From contig JAQTPJ010000014.1 of the NCBI GenBank assembly GCA_028712915.1, positions 1 to 11,387 on the forward strand: a stretch of DNA of 11,387 bases. Reading direction: 5' to 3'. Positions 3,210 to 11,036 of the stretch are shown one piece after another. Positions within the stretch are counted from its first letter, which is position 1. Every line of letters begins with the position of its first letter. The DNA comes from Candidatus Omnitrophota bacterium (GTDB taxonomy: Bacteria > Omnitrophota > Gorgyraeia > Velamenicoccales > JABMQK01). Under the pieces are notes generated by a model. The model ran no database searches. It was not told where the DNA came from and saw nothing but the letters and a program-made list of their open reading frames with translations. The position numbers were made by a program, and so were the translations under genes.

Positions 3210-3238
3210 TTGTTTTCTCAGCAGAAAAAAGTTATAAT
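3210..3238 (+). promoter_or_regulatory. sigma-70 promoter of the trehalose operon leader
   Basis: TTGTTT (3210-3215, 3 of 6 consensus) and a perfect TATAAT (3233-3238) are separated by 17 bases. The predicted start is near 3245. This gives a leader of about 150 bases before the sensor-OtsA gene, with an intrinsic terminator inside it. The weak -35 next to a perfect -10 would fit help from an activator, but no operator is evident. Confidence 0.65.
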
Positions 3239-3322: not shown

Positions 3323-3358
3323 GCCATCTTGTAGAAAGACAAGATGGTTTTTTGTTTT
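3323..3358 (+). terminator. intrinsic terminator inside the trehalose operon leader
   Basis: The stem runs from 3323-3332 to 3339-3348: CCATCTTGT pairs with ACAAGATGG, plus a closing G-U. It has a 6-base AGAAAG loop and is followed by TTTTTT-G-TTTT. It lies 36 bases before the ATG of the first trehalose gene and downstream of its promoter, so it must be conditional or leaky if the genes are to be expressed from that promoter. Confidence 0.88.
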
Positions 3359-3393: not shown

Positions 3394-5628
3394 ATGAAAC
3401 GCATTTTCTTTCTCATTCTACCAACGCTGATTATCGTAACGGTGGTATTTATTATATTTGGCATAGTCCAGATACGCCTTACGCAAGAAAGGCTAATGGA
3501 TGATTTAAAAAGGAAAGCCGTTACGGTCGTTGAGGCTTTGGAATTATCGGCGCGGCACATTTTTATCAACAATGACCAGGGGTCCGCAAATCGCTTAGTA
3601 GAGACATTCCAGAATAAAGAAAGATTGCAGGGTTGTGTTATCTATAACAAGGATGGCGAAATTTTAGCCATTACCGAGAGGATTGTTTATTGGAAGGAGA
3701 AAGATAAGCCGTACCTGCAAGAGGTAATATCAAACAAGGCTCCGCGCAGGGCATTAGAAAGGTTTAAGGAGTATTCCGTATATAGTTATATTTTGCCTGT
3801 CTTAGGCGAGAACGGGGATGTGCTGGGTCTGGTCGAGGTTATTTACGATACTTCTTATATGTTTGTTGTCCTAATGGAATTATGGAAGAACATAAGTACG
3901 GCTTTAATTGTCATAATATTATTGATAGCCTTGATTTCCTTTTTAATACATAGACATATATTTATTATGCCTGTGCGCAGGCTTACGGAGTGGTTTAAGT
4001 ATTTCCAGAAAGGCGAAATAGATAAGTTAAAGCCTTTTGATGAGAAGGGCGAATTCGGCAAACTTATCAGCGAAGTAGAACAGGTAGCGTTAAGTTTAAG
4101 AGTAGCGAGGAAAGTAGTTACTGAAGAGGCGCATGTACGTATCCAGAAGGAAGAATTATGGACAGAGGCTAAACTAAGAGATTTGATTAATGCTAAGTTA
4201 GGGGAGAATGCTTTATTTGTCGTTTCAAACAGGGAGCCTTATCTTCACGTTATAAATGAAACAACAGGCAAGCCTATGTGTATCAGGCCTGCCAGCGGAG
4301 TAGTTACTGCTATAGACCCTATTATGCGCGCCTGCGGCGGCACCTGGATTGCCCACGGAAGCGGAAACGCCGATAAGAAATTCGTAAATTCCAAGAATAA
4401 ACTTGGTGTTCCTCCTAAGGATAACCGTTATATACTAAAGAGAGTATGGTTGACAAAAGAGGAAGAATCCGGTTATTACTATGGTTTTGCCAACGAGGGC
4501 CTGTGGCCTTTATGCCATGTTACGCATACCAGGCCTATTTTCCGCGAGAGCGATTGGCAGATGTATAAAAAAGTAAATGAGAAATTCGCCAATAGCATAT
4601 TAGAAGAACTACCGGCAAAAAGCCCTTTTGTATTTATTCAGGATTATCATTTTACCCTCTTGGCCACGATGATTAAAGAAAAACGCCCGGATGCGACTGT
4701 GGCGTTGTTTTGGCACATACCCTGGCCTAACCCCGAAGTTTTTGCAATATGCCCTTATCAGCAGGAAATCCTGGAAGGAATGTTAAATTGTGATTTGATT
4801 GGTTTCCATGTGCAGTATCATTGCAATAATTTTATTGATACTGCCAATAGGCTGACTGAATGCAGGATAGATACTGAGAAGTTCAGCGTCATCAGGTCAA
4901 CCAAAGAAACATTTATCAGGGCTTTTCCTATCAGCGTAAACGGTTATAGCGAGGAGAAAGATTCTAAATCCATGCAGAAGACAGTAGATGAAATACGCAA
5001 AGAATTCGACCTCGAGGATAAAATAGTGGCCTTAGGCGTAGACAGGATTGACTATACCAAGGGGATTACCGAGCGTATTTTAGCTATTGATAGGTTCTTG
5101 GAAAAATACCCTAAATACAGGAATAAGTTTGTTTTTATACAATTGGCTGCTCCCAGCAGGATTCATATAAAGCGTTATCATGAGTTAATATCCGAGATTG
5201 ATGAGTTGGTGGAAAAGAAAAACTGGAAGTATTCCGACGGTAACTGGAAGCCCATAATTTATTTGAAGAAATATTTTTCAGCTGAGGAGATTAGGCCCTA
5301 TTATTCATTAGCCGATATCTGTATTGTCAGTTCTTTGCACGACGGGATGAACCTGGTGGCAAAGGAATACGTCGTTTCAAAAGAGGATTTAAACGGCGTA
5401 TTGATACTTAGCCGTTTTACAGGCGCTGCCAGGGAATTGACCGATGCCGTCCAGATTAACCCTTATTCCATAGAAGAATCCGCGGACGCCATAAAGCTTG
5501 CCGTGGAGATGCCCGAGGAAGAGAGAAAAAGAAGTATGGAGAATATGCGCAATATCGTCAAGGAGAATAACATATATCGCTGGGCAGCGAATATCATTAC
5601 GGAATTGACTTCTTTAAAGAAAGATTGA
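3394..5628 (+). CDS. membrane sensor (Cache-like/HAMP) fused to trehalose-6-phosphate synthase (GT20)
   Basis: A 744-residue fusion. Residues 4-25 are a transmembrane helix and about 26-163 an extracytoplasmic domain with Cache/PAS-like strands (CVIYNKDGEILAIT, then YILPVLGENGDVLGLVEVIYD). Residues 168-186 are a second transmembrane helix, 187-240 a HAMP linker (PVRRLTEWFKYFQKGEID...DEKGEFGKL), and about 240-265 a charged helix. The rest (272-743) is a full OtsA-like GT20 domain: SNREPY at 278-283, GGTWIAHGSG at 315-324, QDYHF at 416-420, WHIPWPNPEVF at 440-450, VDRIDYTKGI at 549-558 with Arg551 and Lys556, and HDGMNLVAKEYV at 649-660 with Asp650 and Glu658. OtsA makes trehalose 6-phosphate from UDP- or ADP-glucose and glucose 6-phosphate. 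Ordinary OtsA is a soluble protein of about 470 residues, so the sensor half is extra and could gate the enzyme. An AAGGA site lies 6-7 bases before the ATG. A related GT20 specificity, such as glucosylglycerol phosphate synthesis, is possible. Confidence 0.88.
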   Translation: MKRIFFLILPTLIIVTVVFIIFGIVQIRLTQERLMDDLKRKAVTVVEALELSARHIFINNDQGSANRLVETFQNKERLQGCVIYNKDGEILAITERIVYWKEKDKPYLQEVISNKAPRRALERFKEYSVYSYILPVLGENGDVLGLVEVIYDTSYMFVVLMELWKNISTALIVIILLIALISFLIHRHIFIMPVRRLTEWFKYFQKGEIDKLKPFDEKGEFGKLISEVEQVALSLRVARKVVTEEAHVRIQKEELWTEAKLRDLINAKLGENALFVVSNREPYLHVINETTGKPMCIRPASGVVTAIDPIMRACGGTWIAHGSGNADKKFVNSKNKLGVPPKDNRYILKRVWLTKEEESGYYYGFANEGLWPLCHVTHTRPIFRESDWQMYKKVNEKFANSILEELPAKSPFVFIQDYHFTLLATMIKEKRPDATVALFWHIPWPNPEVFAICPYQQEILEGMLNCDLIGFHVQYHCNNFIDTANRLTECRIDTEKFSVIRSTKETFIRAFPISVNGYSEEKDSKSMQKTVDEIRKEFDLEDKIVALGVDRIDYTKGITERILAIDRFLEKYPKYRNKFVFIQLAAPSRIHIKRYHELISEIDELVEKKNWKYSDGNWKPIIYLKKYFSAEEIRPYYSLADICIVSSLHDGMNLVAKEYVVSKEDLNGVLILSRFTGAARELTDAVQINPYSIEESADAIKLAVEMPEEERKRSMENMRNIVKENNIYRWAANIITELTSLKKD

Positions 5629-5654: not shown

Positions 5655-6467
5655 ATGAAATATTTGTTTGATAAATGGGAGAGCCTCCAGAGAAAAATAC
5701 GCAATAAGTATTTATTCATTTTCCTGGATTACGACGGCACATTAACGCCTATCGTGGAAACGCCGCAGAAGGCGGTTATTTCCAAGGAGACTAAAGATTT
5801 ACTGAGGGTTCTCGCAAGGGCACCCAGGTGCAAAATAGCTGTAATCAGCGGCAGGTCCTTGAGGGATATTAAAAAGAAGGTCGGATTAAAGAAAATCATT
5901 TTTGTCGGTAATCACGGCTTGGAAATAGAAGGCCGGAAGATAAAACATGTTAACATGTTGTCTTTAAGATACAGGTCTTTGCTTAGAAAGATAAAGAGGG
6001 ATTTAGAAAAAAACCTTGCTTGCGTAAAGGGCGTTATACTGGAAGATAAAGGGTTGTCTTTTACGGTTCATTACCGCCTGGTAGAAAGCGGCGATATCCC
6101 TAAGGTTAAAAGTATTTTTAAAGAGGCTACAGAATTGCTTTCATTAAAAAATAAAATAAAGGCCAAGACAGGCAAGATGATATTTGAGGTCAGCCCTCCT
6201 TTGGAATGGAATAAGGGGAAAGCCGCTTTGTGGCTTTTGGCCAGGCATAAATTTTCATCCAAAGAAAAGATGATACTGCCGATTTATATAGGAGACGACA
6301 GGACTGACGAAGATGCCTTTAAGGTTTTGAACAGGAATGGTATTACGGTTTTTGTGGGGAGCCCGCGCAGTTCGCACGCAGAGTATTATTTGAAAGATAC
6401 AAAGGAAGTAAACCGTTTTATAAAAAAGACAATAGATTTATTAGCTGAAAAACCATGCCAAAATTAA
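5655..6467 (+). CDS. otsB: trehalose-6-phosphate phosphatase
   Basis: This HAD-superfamily phosphatase removes the phosphate from trehalose 6-phosphate made by the upstream synthase, giving trehalose. From the ATG at 5655 the protein has 270 residues. FLDYDGTLTP at 23-32 carries the nucleophile Asp25 and the acid/base Asp27. ISGR at 64-67 and GNHGLEIEG at 85-93 follow. Lys187 lies in EWNKGKA, and YIGDDRTDEDAF at 211-222 is the Mg2+-binding end motif. The frame is open further up to a TTG at 5625 that overlaps the stop of the fusion gene (TTGA). That start would add ten residues (LTLIAYYVSL) that look unlike a family N-terminus. Neither start has a clear ribosome-binding site, so coupling to the upstream gene is likely. 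The 3' end overlaps the next gene by 13 bases. Confidence 0.9.
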   Translation: MKYLFDKWESLQRKIRNKYLFIFLDYDGTLTPIVETPQKAVISKETKDLLRVLARAPRCKIAVISGRSLRDIKKKVGLKKIIFVGNHGLEIEGRKIKHVNMLSLRYRSLLRKIKRDLEKNLACVKGVILEDKGLSFTVHYRLVESGDIPKVKSIFKEATELLSLKNKIKAKTGKMIFEVSPPLEWNKGKAALWLLARHKFSSKEKMILPIYIGDDRTDEDAFKVLNRNGITVFVGSPRSSHAEYYLKDTKEVNRFIKKTIDLLAEKPCQN

Positions 6468-7126
6468 TAAGAGCTAAAGAGCCATTTAGATTCTATACGA
6501 GGCTGCATTTATCCGAACTGACAGGTTTAAGGGTAACTAATCTAAGCCAATTATTAAAGGCCATAAAAGAAGTCCCCGGTTCCTGCATATACCATCATAC
6601 CCATAGATTCTTGCAGCAGCATCAGTACCTTTCTCCCGAGCCGCCTAATGATTTTGCCTTCTGGGTCAGCGATGTGCTCGGTGAGGATGAGCTCGGAGAG
6701 AAATTGGCAAGTATCGACACAATACAATTTGCGACTATACGCAGCTTAAGGGAAAAGATAGCCGCAACGATTGAAGAGTATCTTAGGGGCAATGCCTTAG
6801 CAAAATTAAAATTTGCGAGGCAGGGAGAAGAACTGCATTTTATAAAATCGATTAGCTTTGTATTGCCTACAAACTATGTTGTTTATGATTTAAAGGAGTT
6901 CAGGGATACCGTTAAAAACATCACCATCGACTCAATATACTTTCACATTTTCGAAGCAAGGCTCAGGCTCGAGAAAAAAGATAACGACTTTTCATATTGG
7001 ATAAGCACATCCCTGGGCAATAAGGAATTAGCGGATGAAATTTCAAAACTTGACCCTTATACCTATACATTGGAAAGTTTGAGGCAGGTGCTTATCAGGA
7101 TAATAGATAAAAGATTACAGGATTAA
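6455..7126 (+). CDS. internally duplicated protein, DUF5752-like, function unknown
   Basis: A 223-residue soluble protein with no signal peptide or membrane segment. It contains two copies of one domain of about 95 residues. Copy 1 (11-110) has NLSQLLKAIKEV, YHHTH at 46-50, NDFAFWVSDVLG at 65-76 and a charged C-terminal helix. Copy 2 (128-220) has the matching DLKEFRDTVKNI, YFHIF at 162-166, NDFSYWISTSLG at 177-188 and the same closing helix. From memory the pattern (a loop-helix, then a Y-H-T-H-like motif, then NDFxxW) resembles DUF5752, which has no known activity; this needs a profile search. The His-rich motif survives only in copy 1, which could mean copy 2 is structural. It sits between otsB and treT, overlapping one and 1 base from the other, so it is probably an accessory or regulatory part of trehalose metabolism. 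Confidence 0.72.
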   Translation: MPKLIRAKEPFRFYTRLHLSELTGLRVTNLSQLLKAIKEVPGSCIYHHTHRFLQQHQYLSPEPPNDFAFWVSDVLGEDELGEKLASIDTIQFATIRSLREKIAATIEEYLRGNALAKLKFARQGEELHFIKSISFVLPTNYVVYDLKEFRDTVKNITIDSIYFHIFEARLRLEKKDNDFSYWISTSLGNKELADEISKLDPYTYTLESLRQVLIRIIDKRLQD

Positions 7127-7127
7127 T

Positions 7128-8339
7128 ATGGCTAATATAGAAGATTATATTCCTATAGTAGGGCAACCCATCATAGACGATTTAAAGTTGCTTGCCGACA
7201 GATTGCAGGGCAAGGTTATCCAGCATATAAATTCTACGGCGGTGGGCGGCGGCGTCGCCGAGATATTGCACAGGATGGTGCCACTTTTGAGGGAATTAGG
7301 CGTCGATACGCGCTGGGATTTGATAAAAGGCGGGGAGTATTTCTTTGAGGTGACTAAAAAATTCCACAACGCTTTACATGGCAGGCAGGCAGACATAACG
7401 CAGCGCGACTTCGATATTTTCATGGAGACGAGCAAGAAAAATATTGATGAGGTTAACATATACGGAGATATAATTTTCGTGCATGACCCTCAACCTATCG
7501 CGCTTATCAAGAAGAAGAAAGATAATAAATGGATTTGGCGCTGCCACATAGATGTATCTGAACCCAATCAGAAGGTATGGGGATTTTTAAAGAATTTTAT
7601 AGTGCAGTATAATGCCAGCGTATTTTCCGCGCCGTCTTTTTCTCAGAAATTACCTATAAGGCAATTCTTAATTTCTCCGTCTATAGATCCGCTCAGCGAT
7701 AAAAATAGAGAATTGCCGCAGGATGTAATAGATTCCGTATTAAAAAAATATAATATCCATACTGACAAGCCTATAATTACTCAGATTTCCCGTTTTGACC
7801 GCCTCAAAGACCCATTAGGGGTTATAGAGGCCTATTCGCAGGTTAAAAGATATATTGACTGCCAATTGATTCTAGTCGGCGGCACTGCTGCCGACGATCC
7901 GGAAGGCATGAGCGTTTTGGAAGAGGTTAAGGAAAAGGCTGCCTCTGACCCGGATATTCATATCTTGCTGCTTCCCCACAGCGACATAGAAGTAAATGCT
8001 TTGCAGAGGGTGTCTACTGTTATGATTCAAAAATCATTAAAAGAAGGTTTTGGCCTGACGGTCGCAGAGGCCCTTTGGAAGGCAAAACCTATAGTTGCTT
8101 CCAATGTAGGAGGAATTCCCCTGCAGATAAAACATAAATATTCGGGGTTGCTTTGCCATTCTGTTGAGGGAGCGGCCTTTGCCATAAAACAACTCCTTAA
8201 TAGCCCGCAATATGCCAAGAAATTAGGAGAGAACGGCAAGGAGCACATCAAAAATAATTTCCTGCTTACCCGCCATATAAGGGATTACATGCTTTTGTTT
8301 CTTTCTTTGAGCCATTCGGAAGATCTGGTTTACCTCTAG
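7128..8339 (+). CDS. treT: trehalose synthase, glycosyl-transferring (GT4, TreT type)
   Basis: TreT makes trehalose in one step from an NDP-glucose and free glucose, and the reaction can run backwards. The 403 residues match the archaeal Pyrococcus/Thermococcus-type enzyme along their whole length as I recall it: NSTAVGGGVAEILHRMVPLL at 35-54, YFFEVTKKFHNALHG at 71-85, VHDPQPIALI at 118-127, WRCHIDVS at 137-144, SPSIDPLSDKN at 183-193, TQISRFDRLKDP at 218-229 with donor-phosphate-binding Arg/Lys residues, DDPEG at 256-260, and the EX7E motif Glu306...Glu314 in KEGFGLTVAEALWK. It is cytoplasmic and has a Rossmann GT-B fold. The ATG lies 1 base after the previous stop, with AGGA 5 bases ahead. 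It gives the cell a route to trehalose that bypasses trehalose 6-phosphate, or a way to recover NDP-glucose from trehalose. Confidence 0.9.
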   Translation: MANIEDYIPIVGQPIIDDLKLLADRLQGKVIQHINSTAVGGGVAEILHRMVPLLRELGVDTRWDLIKGGEYFFEVTKKFHNALHGRQADITQRDFDIFMETSKKNIDEVNIYGDIIFVHDPQPIALIKKKKDNKWIWRCHIDVSEPNQKVWGFLKNFIVQYNASVFSAPSFSQKLPIRQFLISPSIDPLSDKNRELPQDVIDSVLKKYNIHTDKPIITQISRFDRLKDPLGVIEAYSQVKRYIDCQLILVGGTAADDPEGMSVLEEVKEKAASDPDIHILLLPHSDIEVNALQRVSTVMIQKSLKEGFGLTVAEALWKAKPIVASNVGGIPLQIKHKYSGLLCHSVEGAAFAIKQLLNSPQYAKKLGENGKEHIKNNFLLTRHIRDYMLLFLSLSHSEDLVYL

Positions 8340-8475: not shown

Positions 8476-9804
8476 TTGCAAAACATAAATAATATGAATC
8501 AAGAATCAAAAATGTTTATATATTTTTCTCATCTTGTCAATATTGAAGTATTGGATAAAGACGATAAATTAGTCGGCAGGCTCTATGATATTATCGTCGG
8601 CCAGGCAGAAATTTATCCCAAGGCGATTTCCCTGATTGTATATCAAGGCATATTCAAGAGGCGTTATGCGATTATTCCCTGGGGATTGGTTATAGAGAAG
8701 CTCGATAATGCCATCAGGATAAACCTGTCTTTGGATGAAATAAAGTTTTCTCTCCTGGAAAATAACAGGGATAAACTGGCCCTAAAGCGCGATATCCTTG
8801 ATCAGCAGGTTGTAGATACTTATAATCATAATGTTATAAGGGTTAACGATGCACATCTGCTTATAGTGGATAAAGATTTGATGTTGGCGCATGTCGATAT
8901 AGGAGCGCGAGGTTTCATTCGCAGGTTATCTTTTGAGAAGATAGTTGATTTGATTGTAAGGATATTCAATAAAAATTCAGCCTATCTTACCAAAGAAAAA
9001 CTCATCTCCTGGAAAAATATCCAGCCTTTGTCTATCAATCCGGTATCCAAGACGCTGAAAATAAATGTTTCCCAGAGGCAGATAAACGATATCCATCCCG
9101 TAGACCTTTCCGAGATTATGTTGGATTTAGACCGTAAGCACCGCCTTGCCCTATTCAGGGAATTTAACACTGCCACAAAGAGCGCGATATTTTCCATATT
9201 AGATTTTCCGCAGCAGAAATCATTTTTAGACGAACTATCGGATAAAGAGTCAGTAGAAATAATTTCCAATATGCCTTCAGATGAGGCGGCGGATTTACTG
9301 GATGAATTGCCGCGTGACCATGTAAATAAGATTCTTACTGCATTGGAGACGCCCAAGGCCAAGAAATTATCCACTCTATTAGGCTACAAGAGCGAGTCAG
9401 CTGGCGGGCTTATGACTACGGAATTCTTCGCTTTATTGCAGCAGATGACAATAGGGGATGCGTTGGAGCTGGTTAAATTAGACATCTCCAAGCCGGAAAC
9501 AATGCAGTATATGTATATCGTAGACGACAAAGCGCATCTATTGGGTTTTACTAATCTGCGTAAATTAATTTCTTTAGACCCCAAAGAAAATATCCTGAAG
9601 GCAAAATTCAGGAAAAACCTCTATATTTATCCTGAAGACGGAGTCAAAGAAGTAGCCGTGCTTATGGATAAATATAAAGTTAATGTTTTGCCTGTGGTAA
9701 ATGAAGAAAAGATACTGCAGGGTATTATTACCATCGACGATATATTGGATCATTTAATAAATATCGCCTGGCGAAAGAGAAGTAAGAAAACCGCTGCCAT
9801 ATGA
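8476..9804 (+). CDS. soluble PRC-like / MgtE N-domain / CBS-pair protein, putative Mg2+ sensor
   Basis: The 442 residues have no membrane helix. Residues 15-88 form a PRC-barrel-like unit (VNIEVLDKDDKLVGRLYDIIV) and about 120-165 look like a second. Residues 208-310 are the MgtE N-terminal superhelical domain (HPVDLSEIMLDLDRKHRLALF, then SNMPSDEAADLLDELPRDHV). SAGGLMTTEF at 308-317 opens a CBS pair (313-370 and 376-432, the latter ending LQGIITIDDILDHLI). In true MgtE this N-CBS module binds Mg2+ and closes the channel, but the MgtE transmembrane domain is missing here. The Nramp-type transporter starts 4 bases before this stop, so this protein probably regulates it in trans. The start is TTG at 8476, chosen because AGGAG lies 8 bases upstream. 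The in-frame ATG at 8494 has no ribosome-binding site. Confidence 0.85.
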   Translation: MQNINNMNQESKMFIYFSHLVNIEVLDKDDKLVGRLYDIIVGQAEIYPKAISLIVYQGIFKRRYAIIPWGLVIEKLDNAIRINLSLDEIKFSLLENNRDKLALKRDILDQQVVDTYNHNVIRVNDAHLLIVDKDLMLAHVDIGARGFIRRLSFEKIVDLIVRIFNKNSAYLTKEKLISWKNIQPLSINPVSKTLKINVSQRQINDIHPVDLSEIMLDLDRKHRLALFREFNTATKSAIFSILDFPQQKSFLDELSDKESVEIISNMPSDEAADLLDELPRDHVNKILTALETPKAKKLSTLLGYKSESAGGLMTTEFFALLQQMTIGDALELVKLDISKPETMQYMYIVDDKAHLLGFTNLRKLISLDPKENILKAKFRKNLYIYPEDGVKEVAVLMDKYKVNVLPVVNEEKILQGIITIDDILDHLINIAWRKRSKKTAAI

Positions 9805-11036
9805 AAAATAGATTTAAGACATACCGGAAAAGGATTTTGATATTCCTGGCGATTATGGGACCTGGTATTATTACGGCCAATGTCGATAATGATGCCGGAG
9901 GTATCGCTACGTATTCGGTCTGCGGCGCGCATTTTGGCTACAGCCTGCTCTGGTCATTCATACCCATAATATTTGCCTTGATAATAATCCAGGAGATGTG
10001 TTCGCGTATGGCAGTGGTGACGGGAAAAGGCCTCGCGGATTTAATCAGGGAGGAGTTTGGCGTCAGGATAACTTTTTACTCCATGATTATATTAATCCTG
10101 GCGAACATTGGTAATACTATGGCGAACTTCGCGGGCATTGCCGCAAGCGCGCAGCTGTTCGGCATAAGCAAATCATTGCTGGTAATTTTAAGCGCCGTAT
10201 TTGTCTGGTTTTTGGTTTTAAAAGGCACCTATAAATCGGTTGAAAAAGTATTCCTTGTGGCTTGTTTGTTTTATGTGACTTATATAATTTCAGGATTTAT
10301 CGTAAAACCTGACTGGAATGAGGTTGTAGCTAATGTAGTAAAACCCAAGATTGAATTTAGCCGCCCTTATGTTTTTATGTTAATCGGTTTGATAGGGACG
10401 ACCATAGCGCCCTGGATGCAGTTTTACCAGCAGGCCAGCGTCGTAGAAAAAGATATAAAGATTAAAGATTACGCCTATAACCGCCTGGATGTTATTATCG
10501 GCTCTTTCGTGGTAAACATCGTGGCTATTTTTATCGTGGTGGTGTGCGCGGCAACATTGTTTAAGAGCGGAATCCGCATTGAAACCGCTTCGGACGCAGC
10601 CATTGCCTTAAGGCCGCTCGCGGGAAATTATTGTTATTTATTATTTGCCGCCGGTTTGTTCAACGCTTCTTTGTTTGCCGCATCGATACTGCCTTTATCG
10701 ACGGCGTATACCGTCTGTGAAGGCATGGGCTGGGAGTTAGGCGTAAATAAGAAATTCAGGGAAGCGCCACAGTTTTACTGGCTCTACTCGGTTATAATAA
10801 TTATCGGCGCAGCGTTTATTCTTATCCCGAACATAAATTTCGTAAAGATTATGCTGGTGACGCAGGTGGCTAACGGAATTTTGCTTCCTTTTGTTCTTAT
10901 ATTGATGTTATTATTGGTAAACAAAAAAAGATTGATGGGCGAATATGCAAACTCCGCCTTTTATAATGTTATTTCCTGGTTTGTCGTAGTCGCGATGATA
11001 CTGCTTACGATAATCCTATTGTTTTCTTATTTTTAG
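9801..11036 (+). CDS. Nramp-family divalent metal transporter, magnesium-type (NRMT-like)
   Basis: A 411-residue inner-membrane protein with about 11 hydrophobic helices and the Nramp order of motifs. In helix 1 the usual DPGN is replaced by DAGG (31-34, within TANVDNDAGGIATY). In helix 6 the usual MPH is replaced by APW (203-205, within GTTIAPWMQFYQQ). The metal-coordinating Asn and Met of Mn2+/Fe2+ Nramps are thus Gly and Ala. From memory, these are the changes that mark Nramp-related magnesium transporters, in which loss of the soft Met ligand and a wider site allow hydrated Mg2+. The ATG overlaps the stop of the MgtE-like gene by 4 bases, which supports a joint Mg2+ function. Substrate is inferred, and Mn2+ is not excluded. 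Confidence 0.85.
   Translation: MKNRFKTYRKRILIFLAIMGPGIITANVDNDAGGIATYSVCGAHFGYSLLWSFIPIIFALIIIQEMCSRMAVVTGKGLADLIREEFGVRITFYSMIILILANIGNTMANFAGIAASAQLFGISKSLLVILSAVFVWFLVLKGTYKSVEKVFLVACLFYVTYIISGFIVKPDWNEVVANVVKPKIEFSRPYVFMLIGLIGTTIAPWMQFYQQASVVEKDIKIKDYAYNRLDVIIGSFVVNIVAIFIVVVCAATLFKSGIRIETASDAAIALRPLAGNYCYLLFAAGLFNASLFAASILPLSTAYTVCEGMGWELGVNKKFREAPQFYWLYSVIIIIGAAFILIPNINFVKIMLVTQVANGILLPFVLILMLLLVNKKRLMGEYANSAFYNVISWFVVVAMILLTIILLFSYF

Follow-up and report, generated by a model that had tools for sequence, protein, structure and literature searches.

The closest described operon system is the msc-gt-tpsp operon of Thermoproteus tenax, in which genes for a trehalose-6-phosphate synthase (TPS), a trehalose-6-phosphate phosphatase (TPP), a GT4 glycosyltransferase and an MscS-like channel lie together and a complex with the glycosyltransferase activates TPS (PMC3634074). 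This operon has been called unique to Thermoproteus and Pyrobaculum; its TPS and TPP are fused to one another, and the available part of the report mentions neither a receptor module nor a riboswitch (PMC3634074). Another point of comparison is OtsA of Arthrobacter A3, where TPS and its product, trehalose 6-phosphate (T6P), are likewise tied to osmotic sensing; that enzyme self-assembles into networks, and the abstract mentions no membrane receptor (PMC5685639).

With respect to the leader, White et al. (2022) reported that nhaA-I RNAs sense Li+ and that rare terminator-bearing variants of these RNAs sense Na+ (Na+-II). The Na+-II variant that they examined has C in place of U at position 54 (D. 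propionicus numbering), and its C54U mutant responded to Li+, Na+ and NH4+ (PMC9646797). As far as the available text of that paper goes, nhaA-I RNAs occur in Proteobacteria, the terminator variants occur in Deltaproteobacteria only, and TPS genes are occasionally associated with nhaA-I RNAs, with Li+ versus Na+ sensing at those genes left open (PMC9646797). Na+-I riboswitches have been connected with osmotic stress (PMC9337991).

The locus described here lies in the window, by which we mean the whole 11,387-nucleotide stretch of Omnitrophota DNA that was analyzed (Table 1). It shares with the Li+-I and Na+-II riboswitches a match to RF03057 and the association with TPS, and its terminator platform is like that of the Na+-II variants; it differs from what that text describes in that such RNAs turn up often in Omnitrophota and also in Elusimicrobiota and in that the TPS is membrane-receptor-like (PMC9646797). 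Earlier work has noted trehalose synthesis in Omnitrophota (PMC8542988). Among the open-licence PMC papers listed, titles and abstract openings gave no description of a TM-HAMP-TPS protein. The new element here is an nhaA-I riboswitch, overlapped by a terminator, ahead of a receptor-TPS operon.

Table 1. Positions of the leader elements, protein modules and operon genes in the window
Feature	Position	Strand	Evidence
Promoter-like pair TTGTTT - 17 nt - TATAAT	3210..3238	+	by eye; weak, inferred
nhaA-I alkali-cation riboswitch aptamer, RF03057	3266..3329	+	Rfam 43.7 bits, gathering score 37
Intrinsic terminator, stem 3323-3348 then T-rich tail	3323..3358	+	10-pair stem
Receptor-TPS gene, 744 aa	3394..5628	+	single open frame
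TM1, residues ~5-27	3406..3474	+	hydropathy; model helix 2-59; approximate borders
Extracytoplasmic single Cache sensor, residues 28-164, WalK/CitA-like	3475..3885	+	profiles, fold matches
TM2, residues ~165-190	3886..3963	+	hydropathy, model; approximate borders
HAMP, residues 191-240, helix - connector - helix	3964..4113	+	profile matches, model, conserved P193/E227
Linker helices, residues 241-270	4114..4203	+	conserved A246, R249, W256, T257, L261
GT20 trehalose-6-phosphate synthase domain	4204..5625	+	
otsB trehalose-6-phosphate phosphatase	5655..6467	+	TIGR00685 178.8 bits, cut-off 68
DUF5752 protein	6455..7126	+	PF19027 E 8e-70
TreT-like GT4 trehalose synthase	7128..8339	+	PF21269 E 5e-56

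Module order and conservation of the receptor-TPS protein

HAMP receptors are known with kinases, cyclases, phosphatases and chemotaxis proteins as their outputs, and the OtsA enzymes characterized so far are, to our knowledge, soluble. Compared with the OtsA/OtsB pathway (a GT20 enzyme and a HAD phosphatase), the window differs by a TM-Cache-TM-HAMP module before the catalytic domain; compared with WalK-type Cache-HAMP sensor kinases, it has a sugar transferase after the HAMP domain, and Pfam finds no kinase domain. The earlier note had read the gene as one uninterrupted frame leading from a TM segment through an extracytoplasmic domain, a second TM segment, HAMP and a linker to GT20. This reading was confirmed, in that sequence and prediction give the order TM, single Cache, TM, HAMP, linker helix and GT20 within a 744-residue frame, the sensor being assigned as a single Cache domain from profiles and models. 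We regard it as almost certain that this predicted architecture is genuine in the window protein.

Pfam recovered neither N-terminal module of the window protein at its cut-offs. Pfam HAMP gave no match to the whole protein at E ≤1 or to residues 1-275 at E ≤0.1, and sCache_3_2 scored 17.4 bits against a cut-off of 28.4; among relatives, Pfam HAMP matched 6/66 at E 0.01 and 11/37 at E 0.1. Nonetheless, structure prediction and domain search of this region, one of the checks that the earlier note had proposed, yielded both a Cache and a HAMP domain from family profiles and predicted structures. In profile comparison, the HAMP region matches the HAMP domains of Tsr and Af1503, and past TM2 it has two helices and a connector, profile similarity to solved HAMPs and a conserved proline. 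The HAMP unit proposed earlier appears as helix, connector and helix in a single-chain model whose pLDDT goes down to 57-65 across residues 201-250. Since the matches listed in a fold search of the whole protein were all GT-type, residues 1-275 were folded separately; the predicted sensor fold, a long N-terminal helix and a five-strand sheet flanked by the TM segments, matches solved Cache domains.

Conservation was compared across 101 fused rows (80 named loci, 20 Omnitrophota loci and the window). In 95/101, two TM segments flank a stretch of 100 residues or more; the Cache part is missing in four fused-type relatives (L086, L093, L113 and L123), and one TM segment is missing in L060 and L098. 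Mean pairwise identity, calculated from 1500 random pairs of fused rows, is 30% for the sensor, 34% for HAMP, 47% for the linker and 60% for GT20. Within HAMP, P193 (99/101), E227 (100/101) and A238 (100/101) are nearly fixed, with G207 (86/101) and W200 (89/101) less conserved; within the linker, A246 (98/101), R249 (96/101), W256 (101/101), T257 (99/101) and L261 (101/101) are nearly fixed. A diverging sensor joined to a conserved transmission element looks like the pattern of a receptor, short of proof for signalling. Soluble Omnitrophota OtsA frequently share W256 (16/20) and L261 (17/20), so the linker helix is part of the enzyme, and the receptor was either added ahead of it or lost.

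The window GT20 domain fits the GT20 profile and the GT-B fold. It scores 428 bits with the NCBIfam OtsA equivalog TIGR02400, below the cut-off of 564.85, and the best NCBIfam model for the protein, PRK14501, gives 481 bits against a cut-off of 634. Identity as a glucosylglycerol-phosphate synthase was rejected because its 317.5 bits are weaker than the OtsA score. The acceptor and donor residues of the window protein are R280, G302, W318, Y362, W371, D417, H441, R551, K556, R589, D650-L654 and E658, which we take to be the counterparts of R9, G22, W40, Y76, W85, D130, H154, R262, K267, R300 and D361-E369 of E. coli OtsA, with R280 presumably equivalent to R9. The donor-site residues had been called intact from the window alone, and the claim holds across the fused set, with sixteen active-site positions identical in 101/101 fused rows. 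The window GT20 domain is thus predicted to be a trehalose-6-phosphate synthase (UDP-glucose + glucose-6-phosphate -> T6P) with an intact active site.

Occurrence of the fused form

Residues 1-275 of the window protein match 944 proteins at E ≤1e-3; among the 120 matches listed, the organism names are Omnitrophota/Omnitrophica or just 'bacterium'. Any match to the window protein occurs in 180/285 Omnitrophota genomes. A full-length receptor-TPS, defined as one covering the query from ≤11 to ≥735, is present in at least 72/285, the window genome included, a lower bound because at most three candidates were scored per genome and the weakest matches are unlisted. These full-length Omnitrophota versions form two identity bands, 61-78% and 41-47%, and 61 further Omnitrophota rows among those listed are soluble-type OtsA that start within the linker helix.

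The fusion is also present in at least seven phyla besides Omnitrophota. The N-terminus of a more distant family member matches at least 1179 proteins, among whose names are Omnitrophota, Nitrospirae, Eisenbacteria, Elusimicrobia, Acidobacteriota, Methylomirabilales, Gemmatimonadales and Deltaproteobacteria. Among 553 relatives in named genomes, the best 80 belong to Omnitrophota, Acidobacteriota, Elusimicrobiota, Methylomirabilota, Rokuibacteriota, Nitrospirota, Gemmatimonadota, Edwardsbacteria, Bacteroidota and Daviesbacteria/Patescibacteria, with one Syntrophus; Edaphobacter aggregans DSM 19364 and Niastella soli MAH-29 are named strains with a receptor-TPS. Because this named set is the best 80 of 553 and was gathered with fused-protein queries, it scarcely samples soluble forms beyond Omnitrophota. 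The related fusions that the earlier note suspected thus exist in at least eight phyla. Full-length versions in at least 72/285 Omnitrophota genomes and in other phyla rule out an assembly artefact and the sequencing error joining two genes that it had named as a refuting condition, and members in other phyla rule out a fusion peculiar to Omnitrophota. A further lead, that long TPS with such an N-terminus are common in Proteobacteria, was also dropped, as 0/359 matching records of a plasmid collection cover 80% of the query, the best hit being an Aminobacter protein.

Where relatives have a database name, it is mostly plain trehalose-6-phosphate synthase. Names such as the JGI example 'trehalose-6-phosphate synthase/uncharacterized membrane protein affecting hemolysin expression' indicate that automatic annotation has already registered the fusion. 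In a quick LG+G4 tree of 126 GT20 rows, which has 38 open forks and long outgroup branches, the 101 fused rows group with an Aminobacter protein (SH-aLRT 96), and 20 soluble Omnitrophota OtsA form a separate group (SH-aLRT 97). The Aminobacter protein is shorter, annotated at 605 aa, with one TM segment by eye. Since the rows were picked by similarity, the tree gives no count of receptor losses elsewhere.

Operon partners and the nhaA-I leader

The gene order in the window is receptor-TPS, otsB, DUF5752 and TreT-like GT4. For otsB, the ATG at 5655 is the likely start, and an earlier TTG at 5625 is also a possible frame start in the list of open reading frames; the TreT-like protein scores 383 bits with the NCBIfam TreT model, short of the 775 cut-off. 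Counting same-strand genes up to 3.5 kb away, fused Omnitrophota loci have OtsB in 20/20, DUF5752 in 17/20 and TreT in 17/20, soluble Omnitrophota OtsA loci have them in 18/20, 9/20 and 9/20, and the named set, which includes many short contigs, has them in 36/80, 37/80 and 38/80.

Compared with the T. tenax operon, the window has TPS, TPP and GT4 genes but no MscS gene; the sole MscS match of this incomplete genome is on another contig. Within 6 kb of the fused TPS, 9/20 Omnitrophota loci have an MscS-like gene in the same orientation, in 8 of them at no more than about 50 bp, as do 5/20 soluble Omnitrophota and 7/80 named loci. PF00924 matches inside all nine MscS genes of the fused Omnitrophota set, whose genomes carry just 0-4 MscS matches apiece, and MS_channel was confirmed by Pfam in 7/7 MscS representatives. 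Relatives of DUF5752 are fused behind an MscS-type domain in L057:12069-13445 and L082:8762-10153 (Pfam) and in L054:6267-7646 (BLAST). These fusions suggest that DUF5752 may serve mechanosensitive channels on the cytoplasmic side, as a partner or a sensor; we found no mention of DUF5752 in the open-licence PMC literature. Na+/H+-exchanger-type genes lie within 6 kb in 7/80 named loci (Pfam-tested in L062, L055 and L089).

Several other genes lie near these operons. A PRC-MgtE_N-CBS protein and then an Nramp transporter follow the trehalose genes in the window (8476-11036). MgtE-like and Nramp genes gave no match in 40 Omnitrophota stretches and 1/80 and 2/80 elsewhere, so we do not count them as part of the system; in two Patescibacteria loci, L104 and L105, Nramp is about 2 kb from the TPS gene. 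Related MGH1-like/trehalase-like glycoside hydrolase genes are near the Daviesbacteria/Patescibacteria receptor-TPS in L090, L099, L102, L103, L104 and L105 (Pfam-tested in L102 only). Upstream of the window operon, tRNA-Thr, tRNA-Tyr and tRNA-Gly genes are consecutive at 2705-2995. A distant GT20 match (E 1e-32) at G012:C30:18537-20198 (-) lies within a 7499-residue open frame, which might encode a giant protein that includes a glycosyltransferase domain.

The nhaA-I aptamer ends 64 bases ahead of the receptor-TPS start codon, and the promoter-like pair upstream falls below the threshold of a consensus scan. The 5' arm of the terminator includes part of the 3' strand of the last helix of the riboswitch. 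Since the terminator stem starts inside this helix, the aptamer helix and the terminator would be mutually exclusive, and we infer that the window leader is an ON switch by design. Of the other receptor-TPS leaders that have a riboswitch, 39 of 43 were fetched. The overlap is present in 40/41 leaders, the window included, as a raw count by a looser rule and without a shuffled control; a strict T-run test, which cuts stems short, gives 33/40, and the shuffled comparisons apply to this strict count only.

RF03057 accounts for 103 rows in 70/285 Omnitrophota genomes and is found in 1/14 control genomes. It lies within 1.7 kb upstream on the same strand of 41/72 full-length receptor-TPS genes versus 3/61 soluble-type rows (G060, G084 and G158, the last, at 74% identity, possibly a cut fused gene). 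The distance is ≤200 bp in 29 of the 41 and mostly about 1.1 kb in the remainder; in three such cases that were checked (G001, G101 and G051), an mscS gene lies between the riboswitch and the receptor-TPS. Of the other 31/72, two have RF03057 farther off, at 3.5 kb and 4.8 kb, and 29 lack it up to a distance of 6 kb. In Omnitrophota locus L047, RF03057 lies 5.7 kb from TPS, ahead of the MscS gene, and in L201 (G176:C133:23077-23331), two tandem nhaA-I riboswitches stand ahead of the receptor-TPS gene. Under stricter filters, RF03057 was found in 10/45 named genomes and in none of the 11 Acidobacteriota among them. Direct scanning of Elusimicrobiota loci placed it before the TPS operon in 5/8 (L051, L053, L055, L089 and L101) and found none there in L073, L106 and L109; in L055 and L089, a Na+/H+ exchanger gene separates the riboswitch from TPS.

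We also examined 20 stretches from the 55 rows in which the riboswitch is unlinked to TPS. MscS-like genes come next in 4/20 (L244, L250, L252 and L258; two Pfam-tested), exchanger- or CitMHS-type transporters in L249, L255 and L257, and other or unassigned genes in L240, L241, L243, L247, L251 and L256. HflK/HflC-like SPFH pairs follow in 8/20 (L242, L245, L246, L248, L253, L254 and L259, and L244 after MscS); one was Pfam-tested (Band_7), and the rest were assigned via similar N-termini. Such pairs are absent as an nhaA-I target from the available text of White et al. (PMC9646797).

Candidate modes of control

We consider it fairly probable that the receptor-TPS is the committing step of an osmotic/ionic-stress trehalose operon under double control, with a cation riboswitch governing expression and, probably, a membrane receptor governing enzyme activity. 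Taken separately, real switching of enzyme activity by the receptor likewise seems to us somewhat more likely than not. A rise in a cytoplasmic alkali cation (Na+ or Li+) would allow the last helix of the aptamer to form, the terminator to be blocked and the operon to be transcribed. Outside, the Cache domain, or membrane strain, would signal via TM2 to a dimeric HAMP domain, which would shift the conserved linker helix; since this helix ends about 10 residues before R280, it could gate the use of UDP-glucose and glucose-6-phosphate. OtsB would remove the phosphate from T6P, TreT would supply a second trehalose route or act as a synthase activator like the GT4 partner in T. tenax, and the MscS channels of sister operons would let solutes out once stress is over.

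The MscS genes that adjoin TPS in relatives, the few MscS genes per genome, the DUF5752-MscS fusions, the exchanger genes and the riboswitch all speak for the osmotic reading. The setting thus points to osmotic or ionic stress, which was among the signals that the earlier note had proposed, and T6P synthesis itself would probably be switched by the receptor. Its further idea that no transcription step is involved was partly wrong: with an alkali-cation riboswitch and a terminator in the leader, expression is probably regulated as well. Against double control stand the Cache-less relatives, the HAMP and Cache scores below cut-offs in the window, the many genes without the riboswitch and the window operon without MscS. 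Receptor-less OtsA also fills the same operon slot in sister lineages, indicating that catalysis does not require the receptor, which might chiefly be an anchor.

The main rival is an anchor without switching, in which TM-Cache-HAMP keeps the synthase dimeric and holds it, together with OtsB and TreT, at the membrane and the riboswitch alone regulates. The receptor-less sisters, the relatives that have TM2-HAMP and lack Cache, and the sufficiency of the riboswitch as a control point all fit this explanation. However, a Cache-sized domain kept between the TM segments in 95/101 fused rows at 30% mean identity would be a costly anchor, and P193 and E227 of HAMP and the linker residues are almost invariant. 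We consider the anchor unlikely, though it deserves to be taken seriously.

We give similar weight, about one chance in a few, to a riboswitch that answers Li+ as a toxic ion, with trehalose serving lithium tolerance rather than osmotic stress. RF03057 is the Li+-I class, and White et al. name this possibility in the available text (PMC9646797). The base before the string CGGGC is U in 38/40 sequences that hold it, the window included, and C in L232, its correspondence to position 54 being uncertain; in L238 the string lies outside the aptamer, and the 41st leader, L226, reads TGGGC. If this base is position 54, the U leans toward Li+ or a broad response. On the other side, the window leader has the intrinsic terminator typical of the published Na+-II variants (PMC9646797), as do 39/40 fetched leaders, and the riboswitch-led genes (MscS, exchangers, HflK/HflC-like pairs and trehalose genes) look osmotic or sodium-related and would favour Na+/osmotic stress.

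A Cache domain that reads extracellular trehalose, another sugar or a carboxylate, and so tunes synthesis by feedback and not by salt, seems improbable to us, as the neighbours linked to ions and tension, together with the cation riboswitch, point rather to ions or the osmotic state. Least probable of all is that the receptor sets T6P mainly as a signal controlling growth or morphology, a role that OtsA/T6P is reported to have in Arthrobacter A3 (PMC5685639): an adjoining OtsB would serve as its off switch, but the TreT, MscS and Na+/H+ exchanger neighbours suit a bulk osmolyte better. A receptor with a small-molecule product does resemble the cyclase receptors.

Returning to double control, we see about an even chance that the fused proteins represent a pan-bacterial class of receptor-enzymes, Cache-HAMP receptors with a biosynthetic glycosyltransferase as output, often accompanied in Omnitrophota and Elusimicrobiota by an alkali-cation riboswitch, MscS or Na+/H+ exchangers. 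Its wide distribution and its hosts among named strains make the class testable. The riboswitch link bears on the published question of whether TPS-associated nhaA-I RNAs respond to Li+ or to Na+ in osmotic stress (PMC9646797). If the proposed mechanism is true, one operon would read the ion inside through its RNA, the outside through its receptor and tension through its channel, and the state outside would be converted to an osmolyte precursor within one protein. A glycosyltransferase output would then let bacteria skip signalling cascades, since the receptor itself would make the protective solute.
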